Virus record (IMG/VR): IMGVR_UViG_3300008267_000425
Coordinates: 1 to 29,091 of that record
DNA length: 29,091 nucleotides
Source of the DNA: a virus
Reading direction: 5' to 3' (one strand)
The notes beneath the pieces are model-generated. The model made no database searches, was not told the DNA's origin, and saw only the letters and a program-made list of their open reading frames with translations. Made by a program: the position numbers and the translations under genes. This document shows, piece after piece, positions 1 through 23,204 of the stretch; position 1 is the stretch's first letter, and each line of letters opens with the position of its first letter.

Positions 1-914
1 AGGTCATTGGGGCTAACTTTGGCACTCACAGGCATCAGCAAGTCCAAGTAATCGCACATGACAAAGTCCACTTTCAATCCTGTTTGCACTTGCACTTCTT
101 TGATATAGCTTCTGATGTCATTGATGTTGCTCTGTGCTGGCAAGGCCTTGATACGATACTGTCCAGCTTTCTTACTAACTAACTTAACTTTGAGTTCAGT
201 CTGATCTATGTCCTTGCGGATCTCTTTGGTGCTCATACCAGCCAGCATGGCATCAGTTCTCAGGGCACACAGTTCTTCACTCAGCTCTAAACTGATATAC
301 ACGCCGCTGAGTCCGGCCTGTAACCAACTCAAGGCTATGTTCATCATCACAAGACTTTTACCTGATCCAGATCCACCAGCAAATATGTTGAGTTCACCGC
401 GGCTGAATCCACCATACAAGATCTTGTCCATCTGTGGCCAACCTGTTGACACCTGCCCACCCGAGTTGAAGTATTTGTTAATACGTGCTTTGGGATCTGA
501 CCAATAGTCTGTGCCCATGTCCTTGGTCAGGCTGATCTGTACTGCATCTTTGATCAGTTTCTCCACAGGATCATACTCGCCCTTTTCCAGCAAGTCTGCA
601 CTTTTTAAAATAGCACGTTCCAGTTCTTGACGTCTAGTAAAGCCTTCAAACTCGTCCATGAACCATTCAAAATGACCTTCATTCAGATCTGGAATATGAT
701 TCAGTCGCACACCTGTGCTGGCTGCAATCTGTTCCACTGTAGGTAAAGTCTTGTGATCGTCACTGTGCTTGGCAATAAACTCAGCCGCAGGTCTTAAACT
801 TCTATCAAAGTTTTCTGGATTGTAAATGTTCTGCACACGCACATACGACTCTGCGTCTTGCAACATCATTTCTAAGAATAGGCGTTGGACTTCAAGTCCG
901 TAATCTTTTAACAA
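1..914 (-). CDS. 41: Replicative DNA helicase, T4 gp41-like (3' end missing)
   Basis: Hexameric DnaB-type helicase that unwinds DNA at the phage fork and works with the primase encoded just upstream. The reading frame is open from a TTG at 914 to the window edge (about 304 residues). The N-terminal 130 residues are helical. The RecA-like core follows, with Walker A GGSGSGKS at residues 180-187, an ISLELSEE segment after it, and a Walker B-like VDFVMCDYLDLL near residue 290. TTG is chosen because an in-frame TAA lies 12 nt upstream and AAGGA sits about 7 nt before it; the first ATG would be at 869. It overlaps the primase end by 23 nt, so translation is probably coupled. The C-terminal third, including the arginine finger, is outside the window. 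Confidence 0.9.
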   Translation of the reverse strand, partial: MLKDYGLEVQRLFLEMMLQDAESYVRVQNIYNPENFDRSLRPAAEFIAKHSDDHKTLPTVEQIAASTGVRLNHIPDLNEGHFEWFMDEFEGFTRRQELERAILKSADLLEKGEYDPVEKLIKDAVQISLTKDMGTDYWSDPKARINKYFNSGGQVSTGWPQMDKILYGGFSRGELNIFAGGSGSGKSLVMMNIALSWLQAGLSGVYISLELSEELCALRTDAMLAGMSTKEIRKDIDQTELKVKLVSKKAGQYRIKALPAQSNINDIRSYIKEVQVQTGLKVDFVMCDYLDLLMPVSAKVSPND

Positions 915-1851
915 GTTGTTTTTTCCTTAGTTCAATTTTTATTCGACTGGTTTCTTTGGCCTGCATGATAGTTATCAAAGTTGCTACCTTTCCACAACGA
1001 ATCACAGCATCGTTTACATCTTTTACATCCGCGGGCCAGTCAGGGATACTTACTGCCCAGCCCAGTTCCACTGCACGATCTACCAGGCGCATGCCCGGCT
1101 CGTCTTGATCGGGCACTACAATGATTTCGCTATCCAGACTACGTATGAGTCGTACCTGAGCATCATTGACATCGGCATGTAGTACAGCAAGTCCGTTGAT
1201 ACTGAGCGCATCAAACACCCCCTCGACTACAATTGCGTACTGCCAATTGGCGCCTTGTAAGTCTGTGCCAAATACATAGCCCGGCTGTATGTCTTGGATA
1301 TATCGGGGTGTGCGGTTATCTAAAAATCTTGTTGTATGCCCTACTACTTGATTGTCATGCGTAAACGGAATCACAATGCCAGGGCGTGGCATTGTTTTAT
1401 ATAAAAATGGATAGTCCAATGGCGCCTGGCGTTGCTTTAAATACTCCACAGCAGATTCATTCAGAGGTTGTGTGTCGGCGGGCAAATCCCGTTCTTCAAA
1501 CTCGATATTTTGTAAACGATTTGACAACTGCTGACGCTCACTGAGTATGCCTTCTATGTTTCGTTGCCGTAGACTTTCTAGATTGATGCGTTCTATTTCT
1601 TCCTGTGGCACATTCATCCAACCCAATAACTTGCGTGCTTTGAATGTGAGTGTACGACCCAGGACAAAACTGGCAGTAAATCCACAGTTGAAACAGTGAT
1701 AACTCCAGCCTGCAGACGTGGTCTTGATGCCGCCACGACTGCGTCGATCTCGGCTTTCGCCATTGTGCTCACAACAGGGTGCATTGAAACTGGTCCAGCC
1801 ACTAGCACTGGGCTTGCGTCGTACGGGCAAGTAGGACAAGACATCAATCAT
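892..1851 (-). CDS. 61: DNA primase, T4 gp61-like
   Basis: Makes the RNA primers for lagging-strand synthesis together with the gp41 helicase. The 319-residue protein has an N-terminal zinc ribbon (cysteines and histidine at 26, 27 and 29, then C53 and C56 in YHCFNCGF) followed by a linker and a TOPRIM domain with VVEGVFDALS and VVPDQDEPG, the acidic residues that hold catalytic metal. Length is close to T4 gp61 (342). The ATG at 1851 lies only 5 nt after a TATAAT box and has no Shine-Dalgarno sequence, which suggests a leaderless message. The helicase gene follows with a 23-nt overlap. Family assignment rests on motif order and on the neighbour. Confidence 0.9.
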   Translation of the reverse strand: MIDVLSYLPVRRKPSASGWTSFNAPCCEHNGESRDRRSRGGIKTTSAGWSYHCFNCGFTASFVLGRTLTFKARKLLGWMNVPQEEIERINLESLRQRNIEGILSERQQLSNRLQNIEFEERDLPADTQPLNESAVEYLKQRQAPLDYPFLYKTMPRPGIVIPFTHDNQVVGHTTRFLDNRTPRYIQDIQPGYVFGTDLQGANWQYAIVVEGVFDALSINGLAVLHADVNDAQVRLIRSLDSEIIVVPDQDEPGMRLVDRAVELGWAVSIPDWPADVKDVNDAVIRCGKVATLITIMQAKETSRIKIELRKKQLVKRLRT

Positions 1852-1897: not shown

Positions 1898-3055
1898 CTA
1901 ACGGTAAAGTAGATTTACCACAAAGCCTGTGGAAATTATCACTATGGCGCCTTGACTTTGTGGTGGAACTGGATAGGCATTCACATTGACTCCGGCAGCT
2001 GGCACAGGCCAATAGCCTGATCCGCCATTGGTCACTGTGACACCTGTGACCACTCCGATATTGTTGATAACAGCTTCGGCTGTAGCTCCGGCACCATTGC
2101 CCAAAATGCTGACTGTGGGCGGAGCCAAATAGCCACTTCCACCGTTGGCCACGGTGATGCTGGTCACAACACCATCTGTGCAAAAAGCATAGGCTATGGC
2201 CGGTGTTCCAGGAGGCTCGGGTGTGGCAAAAATTGAATTGTTAAAACACAGTTTCAACAAGGGATGCCATCCAATGATGTTCATGTGTATGGTTCTGGTT
2301 TCGTTTAGATAGGTGGTTGACTCAGTGACATTGTACCAGATACTTTGATAGTTTTCTGCAGCCTGTGCCTTGATAGTTCCGGTATAACCAATCAGGTCCA
2401 TTTGTATGGTGGTTACCGGACCGCGTGGTTCAATAAAACTACTGAAATATTCTGTGTTCCATAAACCCGGAAAGCCGCCACCTGCGCCAGTTGGATTGCC
2501 GGACCAGTAAGGATTGCCGCCCGGAAAATTGCTGTATCCAGCTCCATCATAGCTGATTTCGTTGGAAACTTCTAGTGTGGGGATTGTCAACTCGGCGCTG
2601 GGTACAAATTCGGGCAAGACTGAATTTACGATATCCACTGGAGCTCTTGCACCAGCTTGTGCGTCTACAAATACTGCTTCGGTGAGCCCACCTGTTTGTG
2701 TGCGAGCCAAACTGTAGCTGGCTGGTTGTGCTTGAACTGCCAAAAGTTCGTCAGTGGTCAATGTGACCTTGGCTCGGCCTGTGGCAGAGCTCAGCGCGAC
2801 CAAGGGCGCTTCCAATAGAATCTTGTCGCCGGACTGGCTGATGGCACGAAATACAAATGTGCTACCGGTGATGTTGACAGGTTTTTGATCTTGATTGATG
2901 AATTCAAACAAAATCACATTGTCAACACCTTTGTTAATTGTTAGTTTTTTAGCGTACACAGGATCCCACCTATATGTGAATGTAGAACCGTCGCTGGTGT
3001 CCAGGAGTAGGACTCGTGTGCGTTGCTGGTACAGATAAGCGGTGGTTGAATACAT
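1898..3055 (-). CDS. Probable virion structural protein with GGSGY repeats
   Basis: A 385-residue protein rich in Gly, Ser, Thr and Val and with low charge, typical of phage tail or baseplate components. Residues about 25-130 (KKLTINKGVDNVILFEFINQ onward) resemble the beta-sandwich N-terminal domain of phage baseplate or receptor-binding proteins. The C-terminal 92 residues carry two copies of a unit with VVTxxTVxNGGSGY (starting near residues 294 and 334), a motif often seen in tail and fibre proteins of large aquatic phages. A late box GCTAAATA lies 6 nt before the ATG, consistent with late expression. The exact role (fibre, baseplate, decoration) cannot be decided. Confidence 0.6.
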   Translation of the reverse strand: MYSTTAYLYQQRTRVLLLDTSDGSTFTYRWDPVYAKKLTINKGVDNVILFEFINQDQKPVNITGSTFVFRAISQSGDKILLEAPLVALSSATGRAKVTLTTDELLAVQAQPASYSLARTQTGGLTEAVFVDAQAGARAPVDIVNSVLPEFVPSAELTIPTLEVSNEISYDGAGYSNFPGGNPYWSGNPTGAGGGFPGLWNTEYFSSFIEPRGPVTTIQMDLIGYTGTIKAQAAENYQSIWYNVTESTTYLNETRTIHMNIIGWHPLLKLCFNNSIFATPEPPGTPAIAYAFCTDGVVTSITVANGGSGYLAPPTVSILGNGAGATAEAVINNIGVVTGVTVTNGGSGYWPVPAAGVNVNAYPVPPQSQGAIVIISTGFVVNLLYR

Positions 3056-3110: not shown

Positions 3111-3488
3111 ATGGCCAATGACATATTCAACCAACTAGCAGAAAAATATCCATTCATAACCCTGTGTGTGTATGCCAGCACAGAATACGTGGGTATCATA
3201 CAAAATCAAGATGACTCAATCACCACGATCTACGACTTTGGAAACATACAAGATCTGCCAAGTAAACGACGTTTTTTAGAATTGGCCAATGTTTGGTGGT
3301 GGGAATCAAACCGTAGCATACCCATAAACATATTCTTAAAAGCTGAATGGGACCCGTTCCGTATGTGTTTGCGTACTTTTGTCAACAAGGACCTACAAAT
3401 CTTGCATGGTCCGGTGTGCAGTCTCAGTGAAATGGCCCGTAAAAAAAGCAAGAGAAAATCAATTACTCTGGTCCGGCGTGTTGATTAG
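3111..3488 (+). CDS. Conserved phage protein of unknown function
   Basis: A 125-residue protein starting MANDIFNQLAEKYPFITLCV, with a mixed alpha/beta look, a Trp triplet (VWWWES, near residue 60) and a strongly basic tail (ARKKSKRK). I do not recognise a family with a known function; it resembles short conserved proteins of marine T4-like phages. It stands alone on the plus strand, driven by a perfect late box 6 nt upstream, so it is probably a late protein. Its last 30 nt overlap tail-to-tail with the minus-strand gene ending at 3459. The basic tail could bind nucleic acid, but that is only a guess. Confidence 0.7.
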   Translation: MANDIFNQLAEKYPFITLCVYASTEYVGIIQNQDDSITTIYDFGNIQDLPSKRRFLELANVWWWESNRSIPINIFLKAEWDPFRMCLRTFVNKDLQILHGPVCSLSEMARKKSKRKSITLVRRVD

Positions 3489-4037
3489 ATTCATGTGCAG
3501 GGCCACCAGGGCCGCATAAGAAATTGCATGGCTTTGCTTGAACACAAATCCTCGGCTGCTATCACCGTCCCAAACAGATCGAAATACTTGATCCCAGGGT
3601 TGGTTTTGCAAGTGTGCCTTGCCGGGACGGATGATACTGATAAATGCTGCCATCCTAGGAATACTGTCGGGCCGCATTGATCGAAGCAACTCTGTGTAGT
3701 TACCAATGTGTACCAATTGTTTGGCCCATTCTGGATCAGTCCACAATCTGGACCAGGGTGGATCCTGGTGCAGAACTTGTTTATAATGTTCGGGACTTTG
3801 TATCAACTGATACACTGTCATGTTCAATAGATCTATCTTGAAGTAGCCCAGTTGTTCAGCTGTTTGATAATCTATGGCCGCACAGGACTCAACAGGATCC
3901 ACAGGTATATCTGTGACATATACTCCGCTGTTATGACGTCTCACCTGTCCTTGATGTAGCTGACGTGCTGGCGTGGCTTTGATCAACTTGAGTAACTGAT
4001 CTCTGTCGGCCAAGTCTATGTCAATATCTGCACTCAT
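3459..4037 (-). CDS. Miniature DNA polymerase III alpha (DnaE)-like protein
   Basis: A 192-residue protein whose segments match bacterial DnaE in the same order with the intervening domains missing. ADIDIDLADRDQLL (3-16) matches the PDFDVDF palm motif holding two catalytic Asp. HNSGVYV (35-41) matches HAGGVVI. EQLGYFKIDLLNM (61-73) matches the GLVKFDFLGL motif holding the third Asp. LRSMRPDSIPRMAAFISIIRPG (118-139 region) matches the LIKRLQPD...ALFRPG segment, and FKQSHAISYA (166-175) matches FNKSHSAAYA. E. coli DnaE has 1160 residues, so PHP, thumb, most of the fingers and all C-terminal domains are absent. ATG at 4037 overlaps the upstream stop as TAATG. Whether it can polymerise is unknown; it may be regulatory or structural. 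Confidence 0.7.
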   Translation of the reverse strand: MSADIDIDLADRDQLLKLIKATPARQLHQGQVRRHNSGVYVTDIPVDPVESCAAIDYQTAEQLGYFKIDLLNMTVYQLIQSPEHYKQVLHQDPPWSRLWTDPEWAKQLVHIGNYTELLRSMRPDSIPRMAAFISIIRPGKAHLQNQPWDQVFRSVWDGDSSRGFVFKQSHAISYAALVALHMNLINTPDQSN

Positions 4038-4711
4038 TACCAACCTGCTTTCTGTAACATTTCCTTCACATATTCTTGGTCAGCCACATAGTCAGAGAAC
4101 TTTTTCATCCACACTTCTGAATCTATGTAGGACCAGATCATGGCTATCTGGCTGGCATCTAATTCACCCAAGAACCGTTGTCCGCTTTCACAATTGTACA
4201 CTATCCAAGCACTGATGCGACCAGTGGTCACAGCATAGACCATGGCATTGGTATTGCCGTAGCGCAGGCAGTCCTCGGCAGGATTGCCTGTTTGTTCTGA
4301 CCAATCTATGGCAAACTCCATGGCTCTAGCCAGGGCATCGTTCACATTCTCCACACGCAAGTAGTCTATCAAGTATTCGGTATACATGGTATCTCGTCCC
4401 CAGTGATCAATCTTCTTATTGTGCTTGAGCAACCATTCCATGAATCTGGCCGGATTAACAGCCCGGGTATCCACGCAGTATCTACCAAATTTCACAAAGG
4501 CACGGTAGTAAGGACTGGTCGCAAAGTCTTCAAATGTTTTTAACTTAGCACTACCCTGTGTAAGTTCATAGAATTTTAAATAAGCATTAAGCCCAATTCT
4601 AACTCCTGTTTCGTCTTTTTCCTGTCGACGACGACGCGGCTCGCAACTATGCACCGCAAGACTAGACTCTTTGATAAAGTCTTTTCGACAGTACTGACAG
4701 GTATAACTCAT
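4037..4711 (-). CDS. Zinc-finger conserved phage protein
   Basis: A 224-residue protein. The N-terminus has a C2HC-type zinc finger (C5, C8, H21, C23: CQYCRKDF...AVHSCE) followed by a basic stretch RRRRQEK, which suggests DNA or RNA binding. The rest is helical and Trp/Tyr-rich (AFVKFGRY, WLLKHNKKIDHW) and matches nothing of known function that I recognise, though proteins of this shape are conserved in marine T4-like phages. It overlaps its neighbours at both ends (ATGA with the SGNH gene, TAATG with the mini-DnaE), so it is translated as part of this polycistron. T4 late sigma factor gp55 was considered and not supported. Confidence 0.7.
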   Translation of the reverse strand: MSYTCQYCRKDFIKESSLAVHSCEPRRRRQEKDETGVRIGLNAYLKFYELTQGSAKLKTFEDFATSPYYRAFVKFGRYCVDTRAVNPARFMEWLLKHNKKIDHWGRDTMYTEYLIDYLRVENVNDALARAMEFAIDWSEQTGNPAEDCLRYGNTNAMVYAVTTGRISAWIVYNCESGQRFLGELDASQIAMIWSYIDSEVWMKKFSDYVADQEYVKEMLQKAGW

Positions 4712-6547: not shown

Positions 6548-7879
6548 TTATTTCCATTGCAACTTTTCCTGTGTGAAAGGATAGTTGGCTTCCCGGTAAA
6601 AAGTCTTGCGTTTGGTAAGATGACGTTTGGCAAATCTACAAGTTGATGTCACGTCCCAGATCTGTACATGGTCCTTGTCTTCGGCCTTGCGGATACCACG
6701 TCCAATACTTTGTATCACTCGCACAAAACTCTTGCCAGGTTCCACAAGAACCAGATTGAAAATCCTAGGTATATTGATACCCACCATGCCTTGTCCGGCG
6801 GCAATACGATCTACCAACACAAGAGTGTTGCCGGTTTCATTGACTTGCCGGATCAAATTGGCAATGGTATCTAATCTGCCGGGCTCTTCCAACAGGTATT
6901 TTAGCTCGCTTTGATAATTGGTAAACTCTGCATGATCTTCCAACTGCACAATGTTCACGTGACATTGTGCCAACACGCCCTGGCTTTGTAATTCGCTGGC
7001 ACTGAGCTTGCCAATCACTGGCCCCAGGCTACATTTCAAGGCTTGCGACTCGAATGGTTCTTTGGGTATGGTTCCTGTGAGTCCCCAGCGCAGGGGAACA
7101 CGACTCATGACCCCAGTAAGCAAGGTCTTTAGTGCGTCGGCCTTGGCCATGTGAACCTCATCCACAATCACACACACAACATCTTGTAAAAACTCACCAA
7201 TGGTACAGTCCCCTACTCCATTTTTTGTATTCTTCAGCAGGATGTTTAGACTTTGCCAGGTACAGATGGTGTGTGTGCGCCCCCATTCTTTGCGATCACC
7301 AAAATAAACACCTACATCCTGTTGCATATTGATGTAGTCTTTTTCTGTTTGTGTTACCAAGCTCTTGTTGGGCACAATCACAATGGTGCGACCGTATGGT
7401 GCCACGGCGTTGCTGAGTGCGGCTGTGATCACTGTCTTGCCAGCACCGGTGGCAATCTCTTGTATGCATTGTGGATTGATCAAGAAATTGTTGATGATTT
7501 CAACTTGATAATCACGCAACTGCATGGGCTGACCTTCCAAGGGATGGCCACGGCCCCACACAATGTGGCCAAACGTGTTTTCGTTTACTTGTTGAAACTC
7601 AAAACTGGTACTGTAGTCTCTTTGATCGTCCAAATCAATATCGTAATTGAACTTTTCCAAGATAGGAATGATATCTGGCAGGAGATTTATGTAAGTGCTA
7701 CCACCCAGTTGGAAGTAACTTACCTTGCCGTCCCAACGGCCCAGTCTCACTGCCGGCAGGTATCTAGCACCCGGTACATCATACTTGAAGGCATTTACCA
7801 GAGCACGTCTAGCATCCAGCTCAAGGCCTTCTATTTTGATATTTACTTCGTCTCGAATTATAATTGTAGCTGTTCGCAT
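6548..7879 (-). CDS. uvsW: UvsW-like SF2 DNA/RNA helicase
   Basis: Superfamily 2 helicase that in T4 unwinds R-loops and branched recombination intermediates and shifts replication from origin-primed to recombination-primed. The 443-residue protein has an N-terminal DNA-binding-like part (GRWDGKVSYFQ), then motif I ATGAGKT (143-149), motif II DEVH (near 240), motif III GLTGT (near 267) and motif VI QSIGRGIRK near residue 390. It is about 60 residues shorter than T4 UvsW (503). The ATG at 7879 is 6 nt after a TATACT box with no Shine-Dalgarno sequence. In T4 this gene is late; here a sigma70-like promoter precedes it. Confidence 0.9.
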   Translation of the reverse strand: MRTATIIIRDEVNIKIEGLELDARRALVNAFKYDVPGARYLPAVRLGRWDGKVSYFQLGGSTYINLLPDIIPILEKFNYDIDLDDQRDYSTSFEFQQVNENTFGHIVWGRGHPLEGQPMQLRDYQVEIINNFLINPQCIQEIATGAGKTVITAALSNAVAPYGRTIVIVPNKSLVTQTEKDYINMQQDVGVYFGDRKEWGRTHTICTWQSLNILLKNTKNGVGDCTIGEFLQDVVCVIVDEVHMAKADALKTLLTGVMSRVPLRWGLTGTIPKEPFESQALKCSLGPVIGKLSASELQSQGVLAQCHVNIVQLEDHAEFTNYQSELKYLLEEPGRLDTIANLIRQVNETGNTLVLVDRIAAGQGMVGINIPRIFNLVLVEPGKSFVRVIQSIGRGIRKAEDKDHVQIWDVTSTCRFAKRHLTKRKTFYREANYPFTQEKLQWK

Positions 7880-7980: not shown

Positions 7981-9009
7981 TTAACTGTTCTTCATACATG
8001 TACTAGCGGCCAAGGCCTTCCAGTTATCACCGGACACTTTGGTCAAGTCTGCAATTTTCAGAGCCATACGCAAGCTCATCTCACGCAGTCGAGTTTGATT
8101 GGCTTCCATAAACCCAATGATCTCGTCACCTTGTTCTGTGCTAAAATCGTAGTCGGCAAACAGTTCACCTTTGAGGTAAATCTGCTTGATACGCAAGAAC
8201 CGATCACGCATGGTGTTGAGTGTAAGGTCCAGGAAGTGACAACGACTTTGTAAGGCTTCCAAATGGTCTTGCAACTTCTTGCTCTTGAGATTTTGGAACT
8301 GTAGGTTAGTAATGAAGATACACGAACCTTTGAAGTCAAACATGTCTGGAACGCCTTCACGACGCAACATGGCACTATCACTGTTCCAGTAGATTCTACG
8401 CTTCTTGCCTGAATCCAGAGCAGCCTTGAGAATGTTCAAAGATAAGTCATCTTGGAACACAGAGTCACAGTCGTCGAACACCAGGACATTGTTCTTGTCT
8501 GAATGTTTATACAAGGTGCAGTAGAGACCAATCGGAGTCATTGCACCTTTGATAATTTCGTACCTGACACGACGACCACTCAACTGATCAAACAAGCCAC
8601 TATGTTCCAACTGTTTTTCTACACCATAGCTCTTGCCTACACCAGGAGGGCCAACCACAATCATTGCACGGACATCACCGGCAATTGTGGCCTTGGTCAT
8701 TTGATCAAGGATGTCAAAGCGTTCACCAATACGGGCAATAACTTCTTCGTCTGTTTCAACTGTGGCTGGTTGTTTTGCTACAACCACAGCAGGACTGTCT
8801 GACGGTAAGCCGCCAACAAATTCCAAATCCTCAATGCCGTTTACATTGATACGAACTACTTCTGGCAAATCTGGGCCAAAATAGCCATCTGCATTCACGG
8901 TCACATAGCCTCCTTTGGCACCTGTTTGAAATCCTTTAACTAAAGTGAACGCAACATCTTGCACCGGAATATTGCGATACACACCATTTTTAATCATTAC
9001 TGTACTCAA
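7981..9009 (-). CDS. AAA+ ATPase, conserved in T4-like phages
   Basis: A 342-residue protein. The first 110 residues form a lead-in domain, followed by an AAA+ core with Walker A GPPGVGKS (120-127), Walker B VLVFDDCDS (near 175-183) and a sensor-1-like IFITN (near 231). The substrate is unknown; similar single-ring ATPases occur in marine T4-like phages without a proven role. It starts at a TTG (9009), chosen because AAGGAG lies 6 nt before it; the next ATG (9 nt on, residue 5) would be poorly spaced. It has its own promoter with a leader of about 25 nt and its own terminator, so it is an independent unit. Loader, chaperone or remodelling roles are all possible. Confidence 0.8.
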   Translation of the reverse strand: MSTVMIKNGVYRNIPVQDVAFTLVKGFQTGAKGGYVTVNADGYFGPDLPEVVRINVNGIEDLEFVGGLPSDSPAVVVAKQPATVETDEEVIARIGERFDILDQMTKATIAGDVRAMIVVGPPGVGKSYGVEKQLEHSGLFDQLSGRRVRYEIIKGAMTPIGLYCTLYKHSDKNNVLVFDDCDSVFQDDLSLNILKAALDSGKKRRIYWNSDSAMLRREGVPDMFDFKGSCIFITNLQFQNLKSKKLQDHLEALQSRCHFLDLTLNTMRDRFLRIKQIYLKGELFADYDFSTEQGDEIIGFMEANQTRLREMSLRMALKIADLTKVSGDNWKALAASTCMKNS

Positions 9010-9805: not shown

Positions 9806-10624
9806 CTATTTCCAGTGTTGTAAGATCAGTGGATCTTGTATGCTGTCTGGTTTGGGCTGGCCATGAAAAATCAAAATGCTGTTGTTTTTTGCCAGTTGCG
9901 TGCCGGTGCCGGGCTGACGATATATCCGTTTATGATGATCATATCCACCATCAAATGCTTGCCAACGCCAGCTGGCCACTCGCCCTACGTCAAAAAATCT
10001 GCGCTGATCGGGCAAAAAGCAATCTGTGATATAGTCTTGATCTCCACGATATTTTTTCAAAATCTGAGCAAAATCTTTTGTAATAAAATTTTGGTAGATG
10101 TGACCATGCCGGCGTGTATCCCAACGCATGACGCTGGAATTGATATTGTAGGTGGTTGGTCTCCAGAGATATTTAAAATCGCGCACTGCCCAAAAATGTT
10201 GCAGATCCAGTTGCCAAATCCAGTCAATGTTTTGTGTGATTACCACATCAAGATCAAAATACAACAAAGGTCCTGCATAGTGATCAGTGTTGAACAGTTG
10301 CATCTTGTACCACCAGGACTTTTTAGGGCCATTGATGTACCAGTCAGTGAGTCCGTGTTTGATAAAATTTTCAGGCACTGGTCGATCTGTTTCGGTGTAC
10401 ACATGCAATCTTACGCCGGGTGTGATGTGACGATTCAGCATGCTGTACAGGCGTTCTACATAGTCCCAACTGTAGACAGATCCATGTATCACACAGGCAC
10501 AATCAATTGGGCCCGATTCTGGCAGTTGATTGCGTTCAGCATTCAGCGATTGTCTCAGAGCTTGTCGTGCCGCAGGATCATGCGCGGCCGCCAATTTAAG
10601 AGCTCGTTTGGTATTTTTATCCAT
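9806..10624 (-). CDS. Glycosyltransferase, GT-A type with DxD
   Basis: A 272-residue protein. After a helical first 40 residues it shows the Rossmann-like start CACVIHGSVYSWDYV (42-56), a strand with LHVYTETD and the metal-binding LYFDLDVVI with D124 and D126. These are features of GT-A enzymes that move a sugar from a nucleotide donor. SSVMRWD and DQDYI segments in the second half are typical of acceptor and donor loops in GT8-like families. Donor and acceptor are unknown. The start overlaps the end of the gene at 10617 by 8 nt. It is the most downstream gene of the left arm of the glycan module. Confidence 0.75.
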   Translation of the reverse strand: MDKNTKRALKLAAAHDPAARQALRQSLNAERNQLPESGPIDCACVIHGSVYSWDYVERLYSMLNRHITPGVRLHVYTETDRPVPENFIKHGLTDWYINGPKKSWWYKMQLFNTDHYAGPLLYFDLDVVITQNIDWIWQLDLQHFWAVRDFKYLWRPTTYNINSSVMRWDTRRHGHIYQNFITKDFAQILKKYRGDQDYITDCFLPDQRRFFDVGRVASWRWQAFDGGYDHHKRIYRQPGTGTQLAKNNSILIFHGQPKPDSIQDPLILQHWK

Positions 10625-11486
10625 GATTGCGTTGCAAGGCAGAAGACAAGCGAGTCAACCAACGACCTTGCGCTATTTCTTCAACTGTGTATTCGGTATG
10701 ACAAATTTCAACCAGCCACTGATCACGATCTACTGTATAGGGCTGATCAATGTTTTCTATTTGTATGCTCACAGGATGGGCCAGACTGCTGACATCCACA
10801 ATGGGTCTGGTTCCTGCAAGTGCGGCCTGTATGCCAGGGCCTGAATTGTGATTAACGATGGCATGGCAGTCAAAGGCCAAGTTGTAGCTGTCATAGGTGT
10901 TGTCTATTTTCTGTGGTTGCTCTATGATGACGTCCTTGGGCAAGTGTACCAGTCCGGCCCAGTCCAATGCACTTCTAGGGTGTGGGCGTACTACGATGGG
11001 ACGATCAGTGACTGTGCGTAGTCGTTCTACTTGTTGGACGACCCAACCTTCCATGCTGACCAGGCCCACTACTTGGAGACTGCGGGCATGTTGTGCGGCT
11101 ATCACAATCCGGGGATTACGGGTCAAATTGAGGGCCAGACTTATGCCCAGGTGTCTGGGGCGGTTCCAATCCAAGTTTTCTGTGTGTCCATAGTACCCGT
11201 CGGCTGTTATTGAGTTTACAGCTATCTTCCAGGTTTCACCGCGGTACAAGGCACCCACATCTATGACAATGACTGGCCGGCCCAGGCTTCTATAGTGACT
11301 CCAAACTGCCTGATTGGCGGCCATGCGTCCTGACCACAATACTGACCATATGATTGCCGCATCCGCGTCCCAACTGTTTTCCTGGGTGCTTATGCCAGCA
11401 TTGCGCAAAGAGTCCAGCATGGCACCCATCACAGGCACACTGTTCTTGGCACACTGCAAAGGAAAATAGGCCACCGATTTGATCAC
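10617..11486 (-). CDS. GT-B-like glycosyltransferase, paralogue A
   Basis: A 289-residue protein, one of five related proteins in this window. The shared features are TDRPIVVRPHPR (near 160), a C-terminal donor-site-like NHNSGPGIQAALAGTRPIV and DRDQWLVEICHTEYT. This arrangement resembles capsule-type (Kps/CDP-glycerol transferase-like) GT-B enzymes, where the RPHP and S-x-E/A-A-x2-G-x-P segments bind the nucleotide sugar. The start is set at GTG 11486: the longer frame to 11528 would cross the start of the divergent plus-strand gene. The two start codons are then 12 nt apart, with no clear ribosome binding site for this one. Confidence 0.65.
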   Translation of the reverse strand: MIKSVAYFPLQCAKNSVPVMGAMLDSLRNAGISTQENSWDADAAIIWSVLWSGRMAANQAVWSHYRSLGRPVIVIDVGALYRGETWKIAVNSITADGYYGHTENLDWNRPRHLGISLALNLTRNPRIVIAAQHARSLQVVGLVSMEGWVVQQVERLRTVTDRPIVVRPHPRSALDWAGLVHLPKDVIIEQPQKIDNTYDSYNLAFDCHAIVNHNSGPGIQAALAGTRPIVDVSSLAHPVSIQIENIDQPYTVDRDQWLVEICHTEYTVEEIAQGRWLTRLSSALQRNHG

Positions 11487-11492
11487 TAAATA
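11485..11492 (+). promoter_or_regulatory. Late promoter box (ACTAAATA) of the plus-strand glycan operon
   Basis: CTAAATA core 6 nt before the ATG at 11499, the same spacing as at 3097 and 3062. It overlaps the start codon of the divergent gene. No ribosome binding site lies between box and ATG. Confidence 0.45.
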
Positions 11493-11498
11493 TCCATT

Positions 11499-12344
11499 AT
11501 GAAATATACAGTAATTACCTCGTTTCACGAGGAGGGTCTAAAACAATATGGCCAGCGCATGATCCGTACATTTGAACAGCACTGGCCTGCCGAAGTTGAC
11601 TTGATTGTGTGTGCTGAAAACTGCCAACCCGAAGTTGTCAGAAGCAACAGTCATGTGTACGATCTCATGCAGGTCAGCAACAACTGTAGGGCCTTTGTGG
11701 AACGACACAGAAACAACCCCTTGGCACACGGACAAGCTGGGCCGCCCGAAGTTTGGAATCCCAAAAAGGCCTTTAGATGGCATGCTGTAAGATTTGCCTA
11801 CAAGGTATTCAGTGTGGCCTTGTGTGCTGACAATCTCAGCTCGGGCTGGATGATCTGGTTGGATGCTGATACCCATACTCACAGTCCTGTGCCGGTAGAA
11901 TGGTTGAGCAAAGTCTGTCCCGAATCCGCTATGATCAGCTATCTAGGACGTGGTGAAAAATATCACAGTGAATGTGGATGGGTGGCATACAATTTGGACC
12001 ATCCAGAAACCCGTAACTTTATCAGAGATTTTGTTGGCATGTACAACACCGATCAAATCTTTAAAGAACGTGAATGGCACGACAGTTATATCTGGGATGT
12101 TGTACGCAAACAATATCATCTAACCAATAATTTTTTTAATCTCAACCCGTCGTGGACAGACAAAGGCCTGGCTGGGCATCCGTTTATCAACAGTGAACTA
12201 GGTCTATACATGGATCATGTCAAAGGTGACAGGAAAAATCATGGTCACAGCAAGCCCAAAGAAGTGATCAGTCACCCCGACCATCCTTATTGGCAAAGAG
12301 TACTCACACAACCCAAAGTAAATTTTAATCTGGACAAAGACTAA
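11499..12344 (+). CDS. Glycosyltransferase, GT-A type with DAD
   Basis: A 281-residue protein starting MKYTVITSFHEEGLKQYGQR, with the metal- and donor-binding motif WMIWLDADTH (D122 and D124) and a downstream SECGWVAYNLDHPETRNFI acceptor-side region. It is the first of four plus-strand genes inserted head-on in a minus-strand block, and its stop is followed after one base by the next ATG. A late box lies 6 nt before the ATG and no Shine-Dalgarno sequence is visible. The sugar and acceptor cannot be told; by position it works with the adjacent FkbM methyltransferase and two GT-B-like enzymes. Confidence 0.75.
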   Translation: MKYTVITSFHEEGLKQYGQRMIRTFEQHWPAEVDLIVCAENCQPEVVRSNSHVYDLMQVSNNCRAFVERHRNNPLAHGQAGPPEVWNPKKAFRWHAVRFAYKVFSVALCADNLSSGWMIWLDADTHTHSPVPVEWLSKVCPESAMISYLGRGEKYHSECGWVAYNLDHPETRNFIRDFVGMYNTDQIFKEREWHDSYIWDVVRKQYHLTNNFFNLNPSWTDKGLAGHPFINSELGLYMDHVKGDRKNHGHSKPKEVISHPDHPYWQRVLTQPKVNFNLDKD

Positions 12345-12345
12345 C

Positions 12346-12996
12346 ATGTACCAAACTCACGGCTGGTGGTTTCCAGATCAAGACACGCATTTTGCTGGCA
12401 TGCTGGCAAAGAATATCAAAAAGGGCGGAGGTGCCGCTTATCAAGAGCAGGCACGACAGCGCAGCATTGCACTCACACCCAACAAAGGCATTGCCGTAGA
12501 CATTGGTGCCAATGTGGGACTATGGAGTCGAGACCTAGCACAGTGCTTTACTCAGGTAATCGCGTTTGAACCCGTGGCTGATTTTAGAGATTGCCTACGA
12601 CTCAATGTTCCCAGTGCCAATCTAGAAATACGCGAGTGTGCTCTGGGTCGAGAAGACAGCATGATTGACATGAACATAACCTTAGAAAATACCGGACACA
12701 GTCATGTCAACCCTACCACCATGGGTCTCGGAACTATTCCCATGTACCGGCTAGATCATTTGAACTTGCCCAAATTTGACTACTGTAAAATTGATTGTGA
12801 AGGTTATGAATATGAGATTCTGTTGGGCGCAGAACAAACCATACGAACATCGTGTCCTGTTATGGTAGTTGAACAAAAATTACACAAGGACACAGGTATT
12901 ACCAAACATACTCAATATGACGCAGTGGATCTGTTGAAAAGTTGGGGGGCCCGAGAACTTGATCGAGTTCGCAACGACATAATTCTAGGATGGTAG
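12346..12996 (+). CDS. FkbM-family SAM-dependent methyltransferase
   Basis: A 216-residue enzyme that most likely O-methylates a sugar hydroxyl. The SAM-binding motif I is VDIGANVGLWS (51-61), followed by motif II IAFEP, and the FkbM hallmark FDYCKIDCEGYEYEIL (near 145-160), where the acidic pair and Gly contact substrate and SAM. Length fits the family domain. It is the second gene of the plus-strand operon, one base after the glycosyltransferase and 4 nt before the next gene. A second FkbM-type gene lies at 18097-18687 on the other strand; the two are not close copies. Confidence 0.85.
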   Translation: MYQTHGWWFPDQDTHFAGMLAKNIKKGGGAAYQEQARQRSIALTPNKGIAVDIGANVGLWSRDLAQCFTQVIAFEPVADFRDCLRLNVPSANLEIRECALGREDSMIDMNITLENTGHSHVNPTTMGLGTIPMYRLDHLNLPKFDYCKIDCEGYEYEILLGAEQTIRTSCPVMVVEQKLHKDTGITKHTQYDAVDLLKSWGARELDRVRNDIILGW

Positions 12997-13000
12997 TTAG

Positions 13001-14089
13001 ATGCATGGTATCTTGAATTACGAAGAACTTGTGGCACCCTTGGCCGATCGGATCTTGATAAGACATCTTAAAAAATCTGTGCATATCGACTGGACTATTA
13101 CCACAGCTTATCTCAACAGTTGCCAACAAAACTTTGAACAAACCAGACTGTTAAACATTGATTTCAAAGTGGTACAACAAAGCCTACATGAAGATCTCAA
13201 AGTGTGGAAAAATCGTGTGGTCACTGAATACAAAGATCGGTACCGAAAACTGATCAACTGGTTGTCGGAAAATCTGCACGAATATGATCTAGATCGTGAT
13301 TATCTGATAGAGTTGTGTGTGACCGATCCTCGACTGACTTTTGTCAAAACCATAAGCAGACAATTCAACAAAGGCGAACCCACGTGGGCCTTGCAAGGAG
13401 AACAGGTTGATACCAATGAACCTGTGCTGTTGCGTAATATACTGGGCAACGAACTGCTGATCCAGGACCGGTTGACCCATGGCAAACCCATGTGGTTTAT
13501 TGATTCTGGTTACACAAATTTTCTCACCGGTAAAAAAACCTGGCACAGGTTGGTCAAAAATCACACGCATCATGACATCATGGAGCAACAATTTCCAGCT
13601 GATAGATTGGGCATGTTTACAAAATTTCCTGAGACTTGGCGGACCGGTGGAAACAAAATTCTTGTGGTCGAAAGCAGTGAATCACACTACAAAATGCAGG
13701 ACACCTGTTTGGCTAACTGGCGATATCAGCTGCGTAAAACACTACAAAATCTAACCGATCGGCCGATTGAATTCAAAAGCAAGACTACATCAAGAAAAAC
13801 TCGTGTCACGGTGTACCAACAGTTGAAGGACAATCCAGATGATTATTATTGCGTGATCAGTGACAGCAGTGTTGCCGCCATTGAAGCGATCTGGTTGGGC
13901 ATACCTGTTATTACCCTTGGACAACATATATCCGTGCCTGTGGCCAGGACCAAAATTGAAGACATCAATGATCTGTATCGTGGTCCCATTGGTGATTGGT
14001 TGTGTGCTCTAAGCTATTGTCAATTTACCAAAGTCGAAATGCTCAATGGCACAGCTGCAAAAATCACAAAGAAATTTTATCATGTATGA
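13001..14089 (+). CDS. GT-B-like glycosyltransferase, paralogue B (long form)
   Basis: A 362-residue protein, the longest of the five related GT-B-like proteins. An extra helical N-terminal part of about 120 residues (MHGILNYEELVAPLADRILI...) precedes the common core. The core has FIDSGYTNF and KNHTHHDI, then LTDRPIEFKSK, ISDSSVAAIEAIWLGIPVIT and WLCALSYCQFTKVEM, all of which match paralogue D (14991) most closely. The basic RPHP motif is changed to FKSK, so the phosphate-binding site differs from paralogues A and C. It overlaps the next gene by 8 nt. Confidence 0.65.
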   Translation: MHGILNYEELVAPLADRILIRHLKKSVHIDWTITTAYLNSCQQNFEQTRLLNIDFKVVQQSLHEDLKVWKNRVVTEYKDRYRKLINWLSENLHEYDLDRDYLIELCVTDPRLTFVKTISRQFNKGEPTWALQGEQVDTNEPVLLRNILGNELLIQDRLTHGKPMWFIDSGYTNFLTGKKTWHRLVKNHTHHDIMEQQFPADRLGMFTKFPETWRTGGNKILVVESSESHYKMQDTCLANWRYQLRKTLQNLTDRPIEFKSKTTSRKTRVTVYQQLKDNPDDYYCVISDSSVAAIEAIWLGIPVITLGQHISVPVARTKIEDINDLYRGPIGDWLCALSYCQFTKVEMLNGTAAKITKKFYHV

Positions 14090-15002
14090 TGTTGTGGTAT
14101 ATCTCAGTAGCCTGCCCAGGATTGCAGATCGCAATCGCAAAGTCGAGGTGTTACGAGCATTTGCTGAAGGTGCTCAGGCACAAGGTGCCAGTGTATTGGT
14201 ACAAACACAACCACAAGTGGTGGATTGCCGGCTGGCTGTAATTCTAGGCTGGGTTGGCACTAAAATTCGTGGACCCCACATACAGCTCAGACGTGATGTG
14301 ATTGATCATCAACTGCGTACCAAACAACATGTCATGCCCATTGACGCCAGTTGTTTTAAATTTGTAGATACCGACAGCTATTTTTTGCGTTACAGTCTTG
14401 ATGGAGTATTTTACAACACCAATAATTATGCCAATGCCCACAGTGATAATTCTAAATGGCAACAGATCCAACGCAAACTCAATCTTGATTTAAAACCCTG
14501 GCGAGCCAATGGAGACTATGTGTTGGTGTGTTTGCAACGTGATGGCGGATGGTCAATGAAAGGCACTGACATGGTTGAGTGGACTAGGCAAACTGTACAA
14601 CGTCTACGGTCAATTACCAACAGGCCAATTTTGATTCGGTCGCACCCCAAACACAAAATAAATTTGTCAGAATTAACCAGTTTGCCTGGAGTAAGTGAAA
14701 GCGTCAACGCAAACACATTACAACAAGATCTATTCAATGCCTGGGCCGCAGTGTTCTGCAATAGTTCCAGTAGCGTAGCGGCTGTGTTGGCCGGCATACC
14801 TGTGTTTGCCGATGATGATGATTGTGTGGCATGGGCCGTGGCCAATAAAGATCTGGCACAAATTGAATCACCTGCTATGCCAGATCGAACTCAGTGGCTC
14901 TATGATCTCAGTGCCGCACACTGGACTGATAACGAAGCACGCAACGGCATGATCTATCAACACTTTTTGCCTTGTTTAGAAAACACCCAACTAACTGTTT
15001 AA
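14082..15002 (+). CDS. GT-B-like glycosyltransferase, paralogue C
   Basis: A 306-residue protein, ATG at 14082 inside the end of paralogue B. It carries the shared core: VILGWVGTK (near 62), TNRPILIRSHPK, NSSSSVAAVLAGIPVF and DRTQWLYDLSAAHWT. The IRSHPK segment keeps the basic and His residues of paralogue A. An upstream in-frame ATG at 14046 was not used because the family starts with the strand YDVVVYLSS. It is the last gene of the plus-strand operon; its final 12 nt overlap tail-to-tail with paralogue D on the minus strand, and no terminator is visible between them. Confidence 0.65.
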   Translation: MYDVVVYLSSLPRIADRNRKVEVLRAFAEGAQAQGASVLVQTQPQVVDCRLAVILGWVGTKIRGPHIQLRRDVIDHQLRTKQHVMPIDASCFKFVDTDSYFLRYSLDGVFYNTNNYANAHSDNSKWQQIQRKLNLDLKPWRANGDYVLVCLQRDGGWSMKGTDMVEWTRQTVQRLRSITNRPILIRSHPKHKINLSELTSLPGVSESVNANTLQQDLFNAWAAVFCNSSSSVAAVLAGIPVFADDDDCVAWAVANKDLAQIESPAMPDRTQWLYDLSAAHWTDNEARNGMIYQHFLPCLENTQLTV

Positions 15003-15839
15003 GATCCTCCAGGCAGTGCCGTCACTCATTTCTGTAAAGGTAAATTGACTGTAACTGAGATGTCGTAGCCAAGCTTCTCTGAGATCGTCATCGGGAAAAC
15101 TTAATTTTTCTACATCACTGATCTGACTGTTAGATACTACTGTGGCTGCATTGGGTCCCAAAGTGATAGCTGGTTTGCCCAACATCACAGCTTCTACAGC
15201 AGACACGCTGTTGTAGGTGACCAGGCAATACACATCATCGGCCAAGGCTTCTTCCATGGTATTCTCTGTCATGCGTTCGGCTCTGGATCGTTTGAGTCGG
15301 ATTTCAATGGGTCGATCCGTGTGTTGTCTAAGGTGAGCCACAGTTTCTGCTACCCATACTTCTGGATCCATGCCCCACAAGCTGAGACTTTTCTGACTGG
15401 GCGGAGCAATCAAAATTTTACTGCCAGAGCTTTTGGGTTTAAGGCGGATAAAACAACGGGCCAGGCGATCTCCAGGACGTTCAATGATAGCACGTATATC
15501 ATGCACGTGATTTTTGATAATCCTGAAATAAGTTTTGGCTTGCCCATTGCCTATATATCCATTGTCAATGTAATAAAAAGTACGACCATCACGCCAACAG
15601 TCATTGACTCCGGCTGTGAATTTCATACCACGTATGTGCCAAGGATTGGTTGTGGGATACTGCATGGCTTCGTGATAGCTGACCAAATGACTGGGGTGAC
15701 CAGATGTCACAGCTCCGGCCATGAATCTATCCACAAAGGCTGCTTGCCTGGGCTTGACTGGTTGATCATGCAGTTTGCGATTGATGCACAACAGATCCGT
15801 TGGTCCTATCTCTGGACGGATTGGTATGTCTATTTTCAC
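14991..15839 (-). CDS. GT-B-like glycosyltransferase, paralogue D
   Basis: A 282-residue protein starting at GTG 15839, which overlaps the TGA of the upstream gene. Core motifs are YIDNGYIGN and KNHVHDIR, then TDRPIEIRLKRS, TYNSVSAVEAVMLGKPAIT and WLRHLSYSQFTFTEM. The Y/FIDxGY and KNHxHD segments are shared only with paralogue B, so B and D are sister genes on opposite strands, consistent with duplication followed by inversion. Probably transfers a sugar from a nucleotide donor; no donor can be named. Confidence 0.65.
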   Translation of the reverse strand: MKIDIPIRPEIGPTDLLCINRKLHDQPVKPRQAAFVDRFMAGAVTSGHPSHLVSYHEAMQYPTTNPWHIRGMKFTAGVNDCWRDGRTFYYIDNGYIGNGQAKTYFRIIKNHVHDIRAIIERPGDRLARCFIRLKPKSSGSKILIAPPSQKSLSLWGMDPEVWVAETVAHLRQHTDRPIEIRLKRSRAERMTENTMEEALADDVYCLVTYNSVSAVEAVMLGKPAITLGPNAATVVSNSQISDVEKLSFPDDDLREAWLRHLSYSQFTFTEMSDGTAWRILNS

Positions 15840-16522
15840 TCAATCCTCTGTTGACAATATTCAGTGAACATGCGTTCTTTGTGCCATTCTTCAGCCTGAG
15901 GAGTATCAGCGAACTCGTGGAAACAAGGCGTGCCCAAGGTATAATGCAACAGTTTGGCATCAGGATTGACACCATACTCGTCGGGCAACCAGTTCCATTC
16001 GGGTGGTAGCTCACCGATTCGCTTGTCGTCCAGCCAGCTAAATCTATGTAATTCAGCGCCAGTGGCACGTTGAACAAATTCTGGTGTGAGTTTTCTATTG
16101 GGCCATGAACTACAGTTCCATAGGATCACACTACTCCAGTTCTTTCTTGGATAGTCTTCGTTTTTGCTGCCTAGATACTTTTCTGTCATTTTGGTCTTGT
16201 AATCGTGTTTGACCACAAATACATCAGCATGATCCTCATTTCTTATATTCCACAGTTTTACAATATCATCACGCAGGATCATGTCCCCGTCGATGAATAT
16301 GGCCCATCCTGTGTAACTCATGAGGTGTGGCACCAAGAATCGTGTATAGATAAAATGATTGCTGCCATCAGTGTGTGTTTCTTCATAATCTCGGAACAGA
16401 TTTAGTGCCACGGGCACAATGGCCACAGGTTGACTGGCATGACGAATGATACTGTTCACACAGGTATGAAACGCTATGGCTTCTCGGGGATCATAACCAA
16501 CAAATACCGGAATCGGTGTCAT
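15836..16522 (-). CDS. Glycosyltransferase, GT8-like
   Basis: A 228-residue GT-A type enzyme. It begins PVFVGYDPREAIAFHTCVNS, has a short acidic metal-binding triad FIDGDMI (DGD at 78-80) and a C-terminal LLHYTLGTPCF that matches the HxxG...K/P metal and diphosphate motif region of GT8-type retaining transferases. FIYTRFLVPHLM just before the DGD motif is the usual conserved helix. It overlaps the NT-cupin gene by ATGA and paralogue D by GTGA, so all three are translated together. Confidence 0.8.
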   Translation of the reverse strand: MTPIPVFVGYDPREAIAFHTCVNSIIRHASQPVAIVPVALNLFRDYEETHTDGSNHFIYTRFLVPHLMSYTGWAIFIDGDMILRDDIVKLWNIRNEDHADVFVVKHDYKTKMTEKYLGSKNEDYPRKNWSSVILWNCSSWPNRKLTPEFVQRATGAELHRFSWLDDKRIGELPPEWNWLPDEYGVNPDAKLLHYTLGTPCFHEFADTPQAEEWHKERMFTEYCQQRIE

Positions 16523-17286
16523 TGTTGTCTTTCGATATCCAATTCTTCACACTGGGTACCAAATTGTATCTCTACTACTTTGAGTGGAACCTCATGTTCG
16601 TTACGCAATTGATGCCATTGACGATTGTCGACCCAGACATGGCCGTGCTGGTTGACCACCGCCATGAGTTCAAAATCACTTTTGACGTTCAAAGTATACA
16701 CGGTGGCAGTGCCTGATGCTACAAACCAAAATTCACTGCGTTGATTGTGTCGTTGCATGCTGAGCCATTTGCCTGGCGCCACGGTGAGTTCTTTGACCTT
16801 GAGCGTGGATGCGACGGAATGTAGGACACGATAGTATCCCCAGTCGCGATCAGTTCTAGGAGATTTCCACTCTTCCAAGATCCATGAGCTGGAATTGGCT
16901 TTGTTGTTGCCGCCTACACCAAAATCAAAACGCAGATTGAGGTCTAACAAGTCCATTTCTGGAATGTTTTGTTTTGTTCGATCACCGCCATTGGCAAATA
17001 TAATATGATCGTGCGGATAAAGTCGTCGGACATGATGGACGGCCATTTTTGCACTGTTGTCGCTGTCATCAAATTTGATTACTTCATCAACACAACGCAT
17101 GGATCGTAACACTGCTTCGCGCTCACTGAACGGCATAAAAGCCCGTCCTTTTTTGCGGATCAGCCATTCATCTGAATTTAAACCCACTATCAAAATATCA
17201 CCTAGTTTTTTAGCTGCTTCTAGGTAAGCCACATGCCCGCTGTGAGCAGGATCAAATCCACCAGTTGCCAAAACGATTCTTTTCAT
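16519..17286 (-). CDS. Nucleotidyltransferase-cupin fusion protein
   Basis: A 255-residue two-domain protein. Residues 1-135 form a cytidylyltransferase-like domain (HldE C-terminal/TagD type): TGGFDPAHSGH (8-18, with the HxGH motif), SEREAVLRSM (near 55) and NGGDR (near 99). After a linker with WGYYRVL, residues about 150-245 form a cupin like the C-terminal domain of type II phosphomannose isomerase (LSMQRHNQRSEFWFVASG). It may activate a sugar phosphate to a nucleotide sugar and bind or isomerise a sugar in the cupin. The ATG is 5 nt after a GATAAATA late box and has no Shine-Dalgarno sequence. I do not know this fusion from a characterised enzyme. Confidence 0.8.
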   Translation of the reverse strand: MKRIVLATGGFDPAHSGHVAYLEAAKKLGDILIVGLNSDEWLIRKKGRAFMPFSEREAVLRSMRCVDEVIKFDDSDNSAKMAVHHVRRLYPHDHIIFANGGDRTKQNIPEMDLLDLNLRFDFGVGGNNKANSSSWILEEWKSPRTDRDWGYYRVLHSVASTLKVKELTVAPGKWLSMQRHNQRSEFWFVASGTATVYTLNVKSDFELMAVVNQHGHVWVDNRQWHQLRNEHEVPLKVVEIQFGTQCEELDIERQQ

Positions 17287-17291
17287 GCTGA

Positions 17292-17299
17292 TATTTATC
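17292..17299 (-). promoter_or_regulatory. Late promoter box (GATAAATA)
   Basis: One mismatch to TATAAATA, 5 nt upstream of the nucleotidyltransferase-cupin ATG. It lies in the 20-nt gap after the stop of paralogue E. Confidence 0.6.
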
Positions 17300-17306
17300 T
17301 GGGCAG

Positions 17307-18095
17307 TTAATGTCGCAAAATTTGATACTGTTCTACCAGTTCTGCGGGCACAGCAGTTTCAAATTCTGCACGATTGAATTGACTCCAGCAGATGTGTTCC
17401 CACCAGGCAGTACGATCAGGCCGCAGAGGTGCGGCCAAGTTTTTTATGCTGCCCACTAACAAGGTGCTCATGCTGGCATCCACAGTAAATCCGGGCACGC
17501 CCAACAGGCATGCTTCCACAGTGGCCATGGTACGCTCGCCAATGACCGCATGAGCTGTAGCCAATTGTTCAACAAAACTGTCAAATCTTCCCGGTTTGGC
17601 GCCGCCACGTTTTTTACGCCAGTGTATGGGCCCAGACCAGTAAGGTTGTATGGCCAGAGTCAATCGATCTCTAAACTGCTGTAAATTTTCGCCGGTTCGT
17701 TGCAACAGGATTTCTTCCACAGGTTGTATGCCAATCACGTATTCACCTGCGGTGTCACGCCAGGGCTGATGTGACGGAACTGGAAACAAGTCAACGCGAC
17801 TGTAAGGCACTGATCGCATGTGTATGTTGTGGTGTCCACAATAGGTCACTCGGCGTGTTTCTCTTCTGGGTGTGTCGGGGCCCCAGTAACCGTACTCAAT
17901 TTCTATCCAGGGTCTGCCTTCTGCGATGTATTCTTTCAAGGGTGACCACCAGGGTGCAAAATGATTGGCTATCAATACATAGGTATCTGGCACATCGGCC
18001 ACACGATCAAAGTATTCTAGTCCACGTTGTTGCCAAGGAGCCAGTGCCCAACTGGGACCTTCTCCGGGCATGTCTCGGGCAAAGGCGTATTTCAT
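17307..18095 (-). CDS. GT-B-like glycosyltransferase, paralogue E
   Basis: A 262-residue protein, the most divergent of the five. Shared core features are PIHWRKKRGG (the basic segment near 175), GERTMATVEACLLGVPGFT and DRTAWWEHICWSQFNRAEF. The N-terminus, MKYAFARDMPGEGPSW, is Trp- and Pro-rich and resembles no other member. ATG 18095 is used; it follows the upstream FkbM stop after one base, and the longer TTG start at 18110 would lie inside that gene. The Asn/Ser before the S/T-x-E-A motif of other members is replaced here by Glu-Arg-Thr. Confidence 0.6.
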   Translation of the reverse strand: MKYAFARDMPGEGPSWALAPWQQRGLEYFDRVADVPDTYVLIANHFAPWWSPLKEYIAEGRPWIEIEYGYWGPDTPRRETRRVTYCGHHNIHMRSVPYSRVDLFPVPSHQPWRDTAGEYVIGIQPVEEILLQRTGENLQQFRDRLTLAIQPYWSGPIHWRKKRGGAKPGRFDSFVEQLATAHAVIGERTMATVEACLLGVPGFTVDASMSTLLVGSIKNLAAPLRPDRTAWWEHICWSQFNRAEFETAVPAELVEQYQILRH

Positions 18096-18096
18096 G

Positions 18097-18687
18097 TCAG
18101 TGCCACTCAACCAAGTTTATGTCATAGGATTGTATGATAGATCTTAGTTGTTGTTCTTTTTGTAACAGTTCTACATCGTTGATCATAGTCGCATGCCATT
18201 CTACATACAAATGATTGATCCAATTCAATACTCCTAAATCGTGCATGTGTTCCAGGACCTGATACTCGGCTCCTTCTATGTCTAACTTGCACACAATAAA
18301 ATCGTCTAAGGCACAGTTGTTTTTGATCCAATGGGCAAAATCTATACAAGGTACTATGCATTGTTCTTGAAATGTACCAATGTGTGGACCTGCTTGCCAG
18401 CGATCAAGTTCTAAAATACTACTGCCTTGTCCTATAGGTGCCAGACCTTTTTGATATTTGGTTTCAGCAGTTTCTATATTGAGTGTTATGTCACCAGAGT
18501 GGTCAGACAAGGCTTGATTGTAACTGTTGATCCAATTCAAGTTGTTTTTGGCTGTGTATTTGGCATGCGTATAAGGATTGGCTTCCCAGGTATGCACCAA
18601 CCAGGTGTCATCCACAGCATGGTTACGCATAATCTGCTTGAGTCCTTGCCCTAAATGTGTGCCGCCGTCTAGTAAAAATTTACGCAT
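18097..18687 (-). CDS. FkbM-family methyltransferase
   Basis: A 196-residue SAM-dependent O-methyltransferase. Motif I is LDGGTHLGQGL (6-16), a variant shared with the methyltransferase at 20185, followed by HTWEANP and the FkbM signature FIVCKLDIEGAEYQVLEHM (near 130-148). The start at ATG 18687 overlaps the previous gene by 8 nt and matches the family N-terminus. It probably methylates a sugar made or transferred by the neighbouring enzymes. Confidence 0.8.
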   Translation of the reverse strand: MRKFLLDGGTHLGQGLKQIMRNHAVDDTWLVHTWEANPYTHAKYTAKNNLNWINSYNQALSDHSGDITLNIETAETKYQKGLAPIGQGSSILELDRWQAGPHIGTFQEQCIVPCIDFAHWIKNNCALDDFIVCKLDIEGAEYQVLEHMHDLGVLNWINHLYVEWHATMINDVELLQKEQQLRSIIQSYDINLVEWH

Positions 18688-20177: not shown

Positions 20178-20184
20178 GGCTGAC

Positions 20185-20787: not shown

Positions 20788-20794
20788 GATACAA

Positions 20795-21577: not shown

Positions 21578-21582
21578 AAGCG

Positions 21583-23196: not shown

Positions 23197-23204
23197 AGAA
23201 GTTA

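Follow-up and report, generated by a model that had tools for sequence, protein, structure and literature searches.

A probable C-terminal subunit of a split, minimal DNA polymerase III alpha in an uncultured relative of jumbo phages

Introduction

How much of a bacterial-type replicative polymerase can a phage do without? The question is posed by a small gene in the window analysed here, i.e., the whole 29,091-nucleotide stretch of IMG/VR virus record IMGVR_UViG_3300008267_000425. The original prediction was of a 192-residue miniature of DNA polymerase III alpha (DnaE) at 3459-4037, with its catalytic aspartates intact. Those coordinates are right and the gene is on the minus strand, but as a self-sufficient enzyme the protein falls short: the chain is without the NTP-binding half of the palm, with its GRGS motif, and in relatives that half is supplied by a second, unlinked gene. 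A self-standing miniature polymerase is thereby ruled out. What, then, is the protein half of, and what could the two halves do together?

The gene and its family

The open reading frame runs from an ATG at 4037 to a stop at 3461-3459, through a region in which the plus strand is full of stops.

4037..3459, minus strand: 192-aa protein, probably the C half of a split minimal DNA polymerase III alpha; phrog_11778, with the catalytic Asp strands and a remnant of the fingers
4020..4028, minus strand: codons for D4-I5-D6, the catalytic DxD; invariant in 34 sequences, and corresponding to D401/D403 of E. coli DnaE provided that the structural alignment begins without a gap
3831..3839, minus strand: codons for K67-I68-D69, the KFDFLGL equivalent with the third catalytic Asp; K67 and D69 invariant, with a strand at 68-72 in the predicted model

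Five DnaE/PolC motifs occur in order within the 192 residues, as had been proposed: D4-I-D6-I-D8, H35-NSGVYV, K67-I-D69-LL, I136-RPGK and F166-KQSHAISYA. Among them are the three aspartates that bind metal in C-family polymerases, D4, D6 and D69, belonging to DxD and KxD motifs (E. coli equivalents D401, D403 and D555). In an alignment of 34 diverse members the invariant positions are D4, D6, D8, H35, G38, K67, D69, R137, P138, F166 and H170, and in nearly every relative D[IV]DID is no more than about 20 residues from the start of the protein.

At the family level, residues 3-186 match phrog_11778, ‘DNA polymerase’, with an E value of 1.4e-53, and the general DnaE family, phrog_405, is matched more weakly (E 2.5e-5); hhalign comparison with a full-length phage DnaE gives a probability of 95.5%. 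A Pfam search with the 192-residue product gave no match, so its assignment to a family is based on PHROGs, hhalign and structure. A profile search of PDB sequences likewise gave no close similarity to cellular DnaE, the relevant hit being sub-threshold (E 0.12), and in it the DxD is two positions out of register, within a stretch that is itself sub-threshold; because that similarity is weak, the assignment of D4 and D6 as the catalytic pair is based on the structural alignment and on their invariance. Considered together, the motif, family and structure matches to C-family polymerases exceed chance.

The C half is widely kept. By tblastn at least 63 phage records carry it, almost all being jumbo phages of the RaK2, PA5oct, 121Q, Atu_ph07 and XacN1 kind, and at least 593 IMG/VR stretches encode relatives of it. 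The window version is at most 41% identical to those of named phages. Among close relatives (11 pairs) dN/dS is about 0.1, i.e., there is purifying selection.

The predicted fold

The AlphaFold model of the C half has a pLDDT of 89.7 and a pTM of 0.79. When it was aligned by VIA-align, the top 14 entries were all Pol III alpha or PolC, with Z from 9.6 down to 6.0, and the next, unrelated, row had 3.4, so that the comparison with the E. coli DnaE palm suggested at the outset came out in favour of a C-family fold. The best match is PolC 3f2c (Z 9.6, rmsd 4.1, 190 residues aligned), with Taq Pol III alpha at Z 9.1 and E. coli 2hnh at Z 8.2. In the structural alignment residues 1-190 correspond to E. 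coli DnaE 398-809, and residue 1 is aligned with DnaE 398, Taq 460 and PolC 970. Foldseek TM-scores are modest, 0.33-0.50, as is to be expected of a half-domain with large deletions.

Where are the deletions? The DxD-to-HxxG spacing is 31 residues in the C half and 109 in a full phage DnaE, a loss of about 78, and the RPG-to-FxKSH spacing is 30 against 109, a loss of about 79. The segment lost between DxD and HxxG is the one that in DnaE forms the thumb, and the motif spacing leaves no space for one. With 192 residues, and nothing outside the region aligned to DnaE 398-809, the C half is without thumb, PHP, clamp-binding, OB and tau-binding parts. The GRGS motif is also absent from the chain, and in relatives it is carried by a separate protein.

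The partner and the split point

A search of relatives with a DnaE profile identified that second small protein, of about 170 aa (phrog_11127), which carries GVGRGSSVASY; GRGS is invariant among the aligned relatives. Eight relatives were tested, of which six have this N half; the remaining two are incomplete contigs, 111 and 145 kb long. The N half is absent from the 29-kb window contig, a fragment, and is known from relatives only, among them some whose C half is about 80% identical to that of the window, e.g., the pair L070 and L115, which are on one 317-kb contig.

The hhalign match of the N half to a full-length phage DnaE has a probability of 97.6% (E 3e-12), and its PDB profile search returned Pol III alpha only, in a match that stops at E. 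coli residue 392. In the model of the L115 protein (pLDDT 83.3) residues 79-173 correspond to DnaE 279-393, the structural alignment of that part giving Z 10.4 on 2hnh and 12.4 on 5lew. As the N half aligns to 279-393 and the C half to 398-809, the modelled split point is between DnaE 393 and 398, directly ahead of the catalytic DxD. Of 87 N-half reading frames read, 86 end within a few residues of EFL(K/R), the DnaE segment just before PDFDVDF, and no fused single-chain form of the split family was seen among the 87. The one that does not end there, L259, is a full-length phage DnaE of the ordinary sort rather than a fused form.

Do the halves travel together? The listings for the two halves have 60 phage records each, and 59 of these occur in both. 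One of the two exceptions is a partial record of 109 kb; the other, a phage of 319 kb, comes from the weak end of the list, and three C-half records there fell outside the 60. The genes themselves are far apart, from about 15 kb in XacN1 to about 180 kb in Atu_ph07.

Gene neighbourhoods

The window is a T4-type replication neighbourhood, with genes for a Toprim primase, UvsW, UvsX and a gp32-like SSB, and in relatives also the C half is located among UvsW, primase and helicase genes. The neighbours that bear on what follows are:

4037..4711, minus strand: upstream gene, phrog_11058, 224 aa, with a C2H2-like zinc finger at the N terminus; coupled by TAATG to the polymerase half
3111..3488, plus strand: convergent gene, phrog_11637, 125 aa; shares 30 nt with the 3′ end of the polymerase gene, a neighbour kept across lineages
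892..1851, minus strand: DnaG-type Toprim primase (gp61-like), phrog_47 (E 1.4e-33), Toprim_2; conserved replication neighbourhood
6548..7879, minus strand: UvsW-like helicase, phrog_16 (E 1.1e-57); same replication neighbourhood as the polymerase half
7981-9009: AAA+ protein of unknown function, phrog_1250 (E 7e-83)

Coupling to a zinc-finger protein had been proposed, and the coupling itself stands, by TAATG overlap. The upstream product matches phrog_11058 with an E value of 1.3e-50; its zinc finger has a visible cysteine/histidine pattern, but at 15 bits falls below the Pfam cut-off of 25. The order phrog_11058 gene then polymerase half recurs in phage Paride, and in RaK2 with one gene inserted. 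The clamp-loader gene thought to be nearby in the window proved to be the phrog_1250 AAA+ gene, whose match to the clamp-loader family is weak (E 0.05). It is the N half, in relatives, that is near a clamp loader, being two to three genes from gp44 in Paride, RaK2 and L115.

The tail-to-tail arrangement with the phrog_11637 gene (window 3459-3488) is a matter of its own: overlaps of 4-41 nt are present in 39 of the 51 loci read, including lineages that are about 35% identical, and this antisense overlap is unusually durable. Several other features of the window may be recorded. A perfect sigma-70 promoter match (TTGACA-16-TATAAT, 12/12) at 6545-6518 on the minus strand heads the gene run toward the polymerase half. 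Beside the replication genes, 1898-3055 on the minus strand encodes a 385-aa protein, residues 280-357 of which match a repeat of many phage baseplate, head-closure and virion proteins. Some 12 kb among the replication genes, 9806-21679, carries genes for a glycosyltransferase, an FkbM methyltransferase, a cytidylyltransferase/cupin protein and UDP-glucose dehydrogenase, which suggests sugar-nucleotide or glycan synthesis. Near UvsX are genes for three radical SAM proteins (phrog_14086), on the minus strand at 22045-23235, 24518-25717 and 26220-27095, and in the relative L115 another radical SAM protein adjoins gp44.

A further premise was that a C-family segment would here be in a T4-like lineage with its own B-family polymerase, and the relatives bear this out. 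A search for gp43 found it in five of the eight tested, namely three large environmental contigs, Paride and RaK2; it was not found in the three shorter related contigs. One 337-kb phage contig (G001, IMGVR_UViG_3300023174_005338) even has three polymerases: a DnaE-like protein of 568 aa, in a single chain, that has every catalytic motif and no PHP part (L089, 1102-2805, minus strand), the split pair and a B-family polymerase.

Polymerase, scaffold, transferase or relic?

The reading frame probably encodes the C subunit of a minimal C-family DNA polymerase that RaK2/PA5oct-like jumbo phages (group 2.2) make from two genes. The C subunit would supply the metal-binding aspartate strands (D4, D6 and D69), the HxxG segment and the RPG and FKxSH helices, and the separately encoded N subunit, phrog_11127, would supply the front part of the palm, including the GRGSS motif for nucleotide binding. 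Since the N half ends where the C half begins in DnaE, the two are proposed to fold into one Pol-beta-type palm with reduced fingers. Judging from the separate alignments of the models to DnaE, GRGS and the three aspartates would then come close together across two chains. With thumb, PHP, clamp-binding and OB parts missing, such an enzyme would be expected to be distributive and suited to short synthesis; its most likely role would be primer extension, gap filling or repair in a T4-type replisome with B-family gp43 as the main polymerase. The data themselves show homology and a fold match for both halves, where the split falls, that the halves co-occur, conserved active-site residues, purifying selection and the setting among replication genes; physical assembly, catalytic activity, the substrate and a gap-filling or lagging-strand role are what we infer. 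A bolder version is quite possible, though less likely than not: that this is the smallest known templated C-family polymerase, with two unlinked subunits of about 170-190 aa forming one thumbless active site, that it is a dedicated second polymerase beside gp43, perhaps recruited by the clamp loader to the lagging strand, and that it is a living model of an ancestral Pol III core.

Must there be synthesis at all? The halves could have kept the Pol III palm as a scaffold for the binding of DNA, primers or proteins of the replisome, e.g., linking clamp loader to primase-helicase. Loss of the thumb and most of the fingers, seen in the shortened motif spacings (31 and 30 residues, each in place of 109), would be in keeping with such a non-catalytic adaptor, as would the B-family replicase of the relatives and the replisome genes that adjoin. 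It is nevertheless unlikely, as the three metal-binding aspartates, K67, the HxxG and FKxH positions and the partner's GRGS are all invariant, and invariance of active-site residues is hard to explain without catalysis. Catalysis of another sort, a template-independent or unusual nucleotidyl transfer by this split palm (to tail ends, make primers or carry out a modification), has in its favour that Pol-beta-type palms include many non-templated transferases and that a missing thumb and trimmed fingers weaken the grip on a template. The RPG and FKxSH helices, which in DnaE structures lie at the nucleotide and template, are retained here as fingers helices, invariant or nearly so, and that makes this reading improbable. 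The early suggestion of a minimal nucleotidyl transferase may still hold for a two-subunit enzyme, not for the C half by itself.

Two further early suggestions, a relic and a decoy for host replication factors, could appeal to the small size of the protein and to its having no other DnaE domain. Both fit poorly with invariant catalytic residues, the low dN/dS, retention in so many phage records and IMG/VR stretches, joint retention with the N half and the fact that cellular DnaE is not closely similar; no support emerged for a decoy of host DnaE, and both readings are very improbable. The preferred two-subunit polymerase would, if active, have an active site divided between two unlinked proteins and pared to the palm and bits of the fingers. 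It would then show what a C-family polymerase can dispense with, and be a minimal system for its chemistry. It also raises the question of why a phage with a T4-type replicase retains a second, bacterial-type polymerase. With so sharp a split point and a link to the clamp loader, the enzyme can be tested directly in phages like RaK2 or PA5oct.

Comparison with known systems

In 2021 Iyer et al. (PMC7824862) described computationally a minimal DNA Pol III alpha that group 2.2 jumbo phages encode in split form, as two proteins from distant genes with a co-existing B-family polymerase and no other Pol III domains, and the idea of an ancestral Pol III core was suggested there. The window protein is probably part of that predicted enzyme, in an uncultured environmental lineage: it is the separate C unit, with the Mg-binding aspartates and a template-binding segment. 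The families (PHROGs 11127 for the N half, 11778 for the C half) and, in relatives of the window, the two-protein split are the same and nothing essential differs, with the window lineage at most 41% identical to named phages. What is added is the exact split point, the near-complete co-occurrence, the selection estimate and the finding that the N half keeps a place close to the clamp-loader gene. No experimental follow-up since 2021 (activity, complex or expression) turned up in the open papers that were searched.

Single genes of the pair had been met before. The truncated ‘Pol III alpha’ of phages CBB (CBB_328, 172 aa) and Atu_ph07 (gp316) was noted as one gene, with the split unrecognised (PMC5259590, PMC6102473); by size and place near gp44 both are the N half. 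In a marine survey the Pol III alpha NTPase domain PF07733 was in 51.9% of cluster PGC_A (PMC9123017), and some of those proteins may be the N half.

With the single-chain phage DnaE proteins (L259, 858 aa; L089, 568 aa) the split pair shares its motifs, which there are within one chain, in one reading frame with long inter-motif spacing; L089 coexists with a split pair in its contig. With bacterial DnaE/PolC alpha (2hnh, 2hpi, 3f2c) it shares motif order, catalytic aspartate positions and the fold of palm and partial fingers. It is quite a departure from them in being two chains that total about 365 residues, compared to about 1,160, and in having no PHP, thumb, clamp-binding, OB or tau-binding parts.
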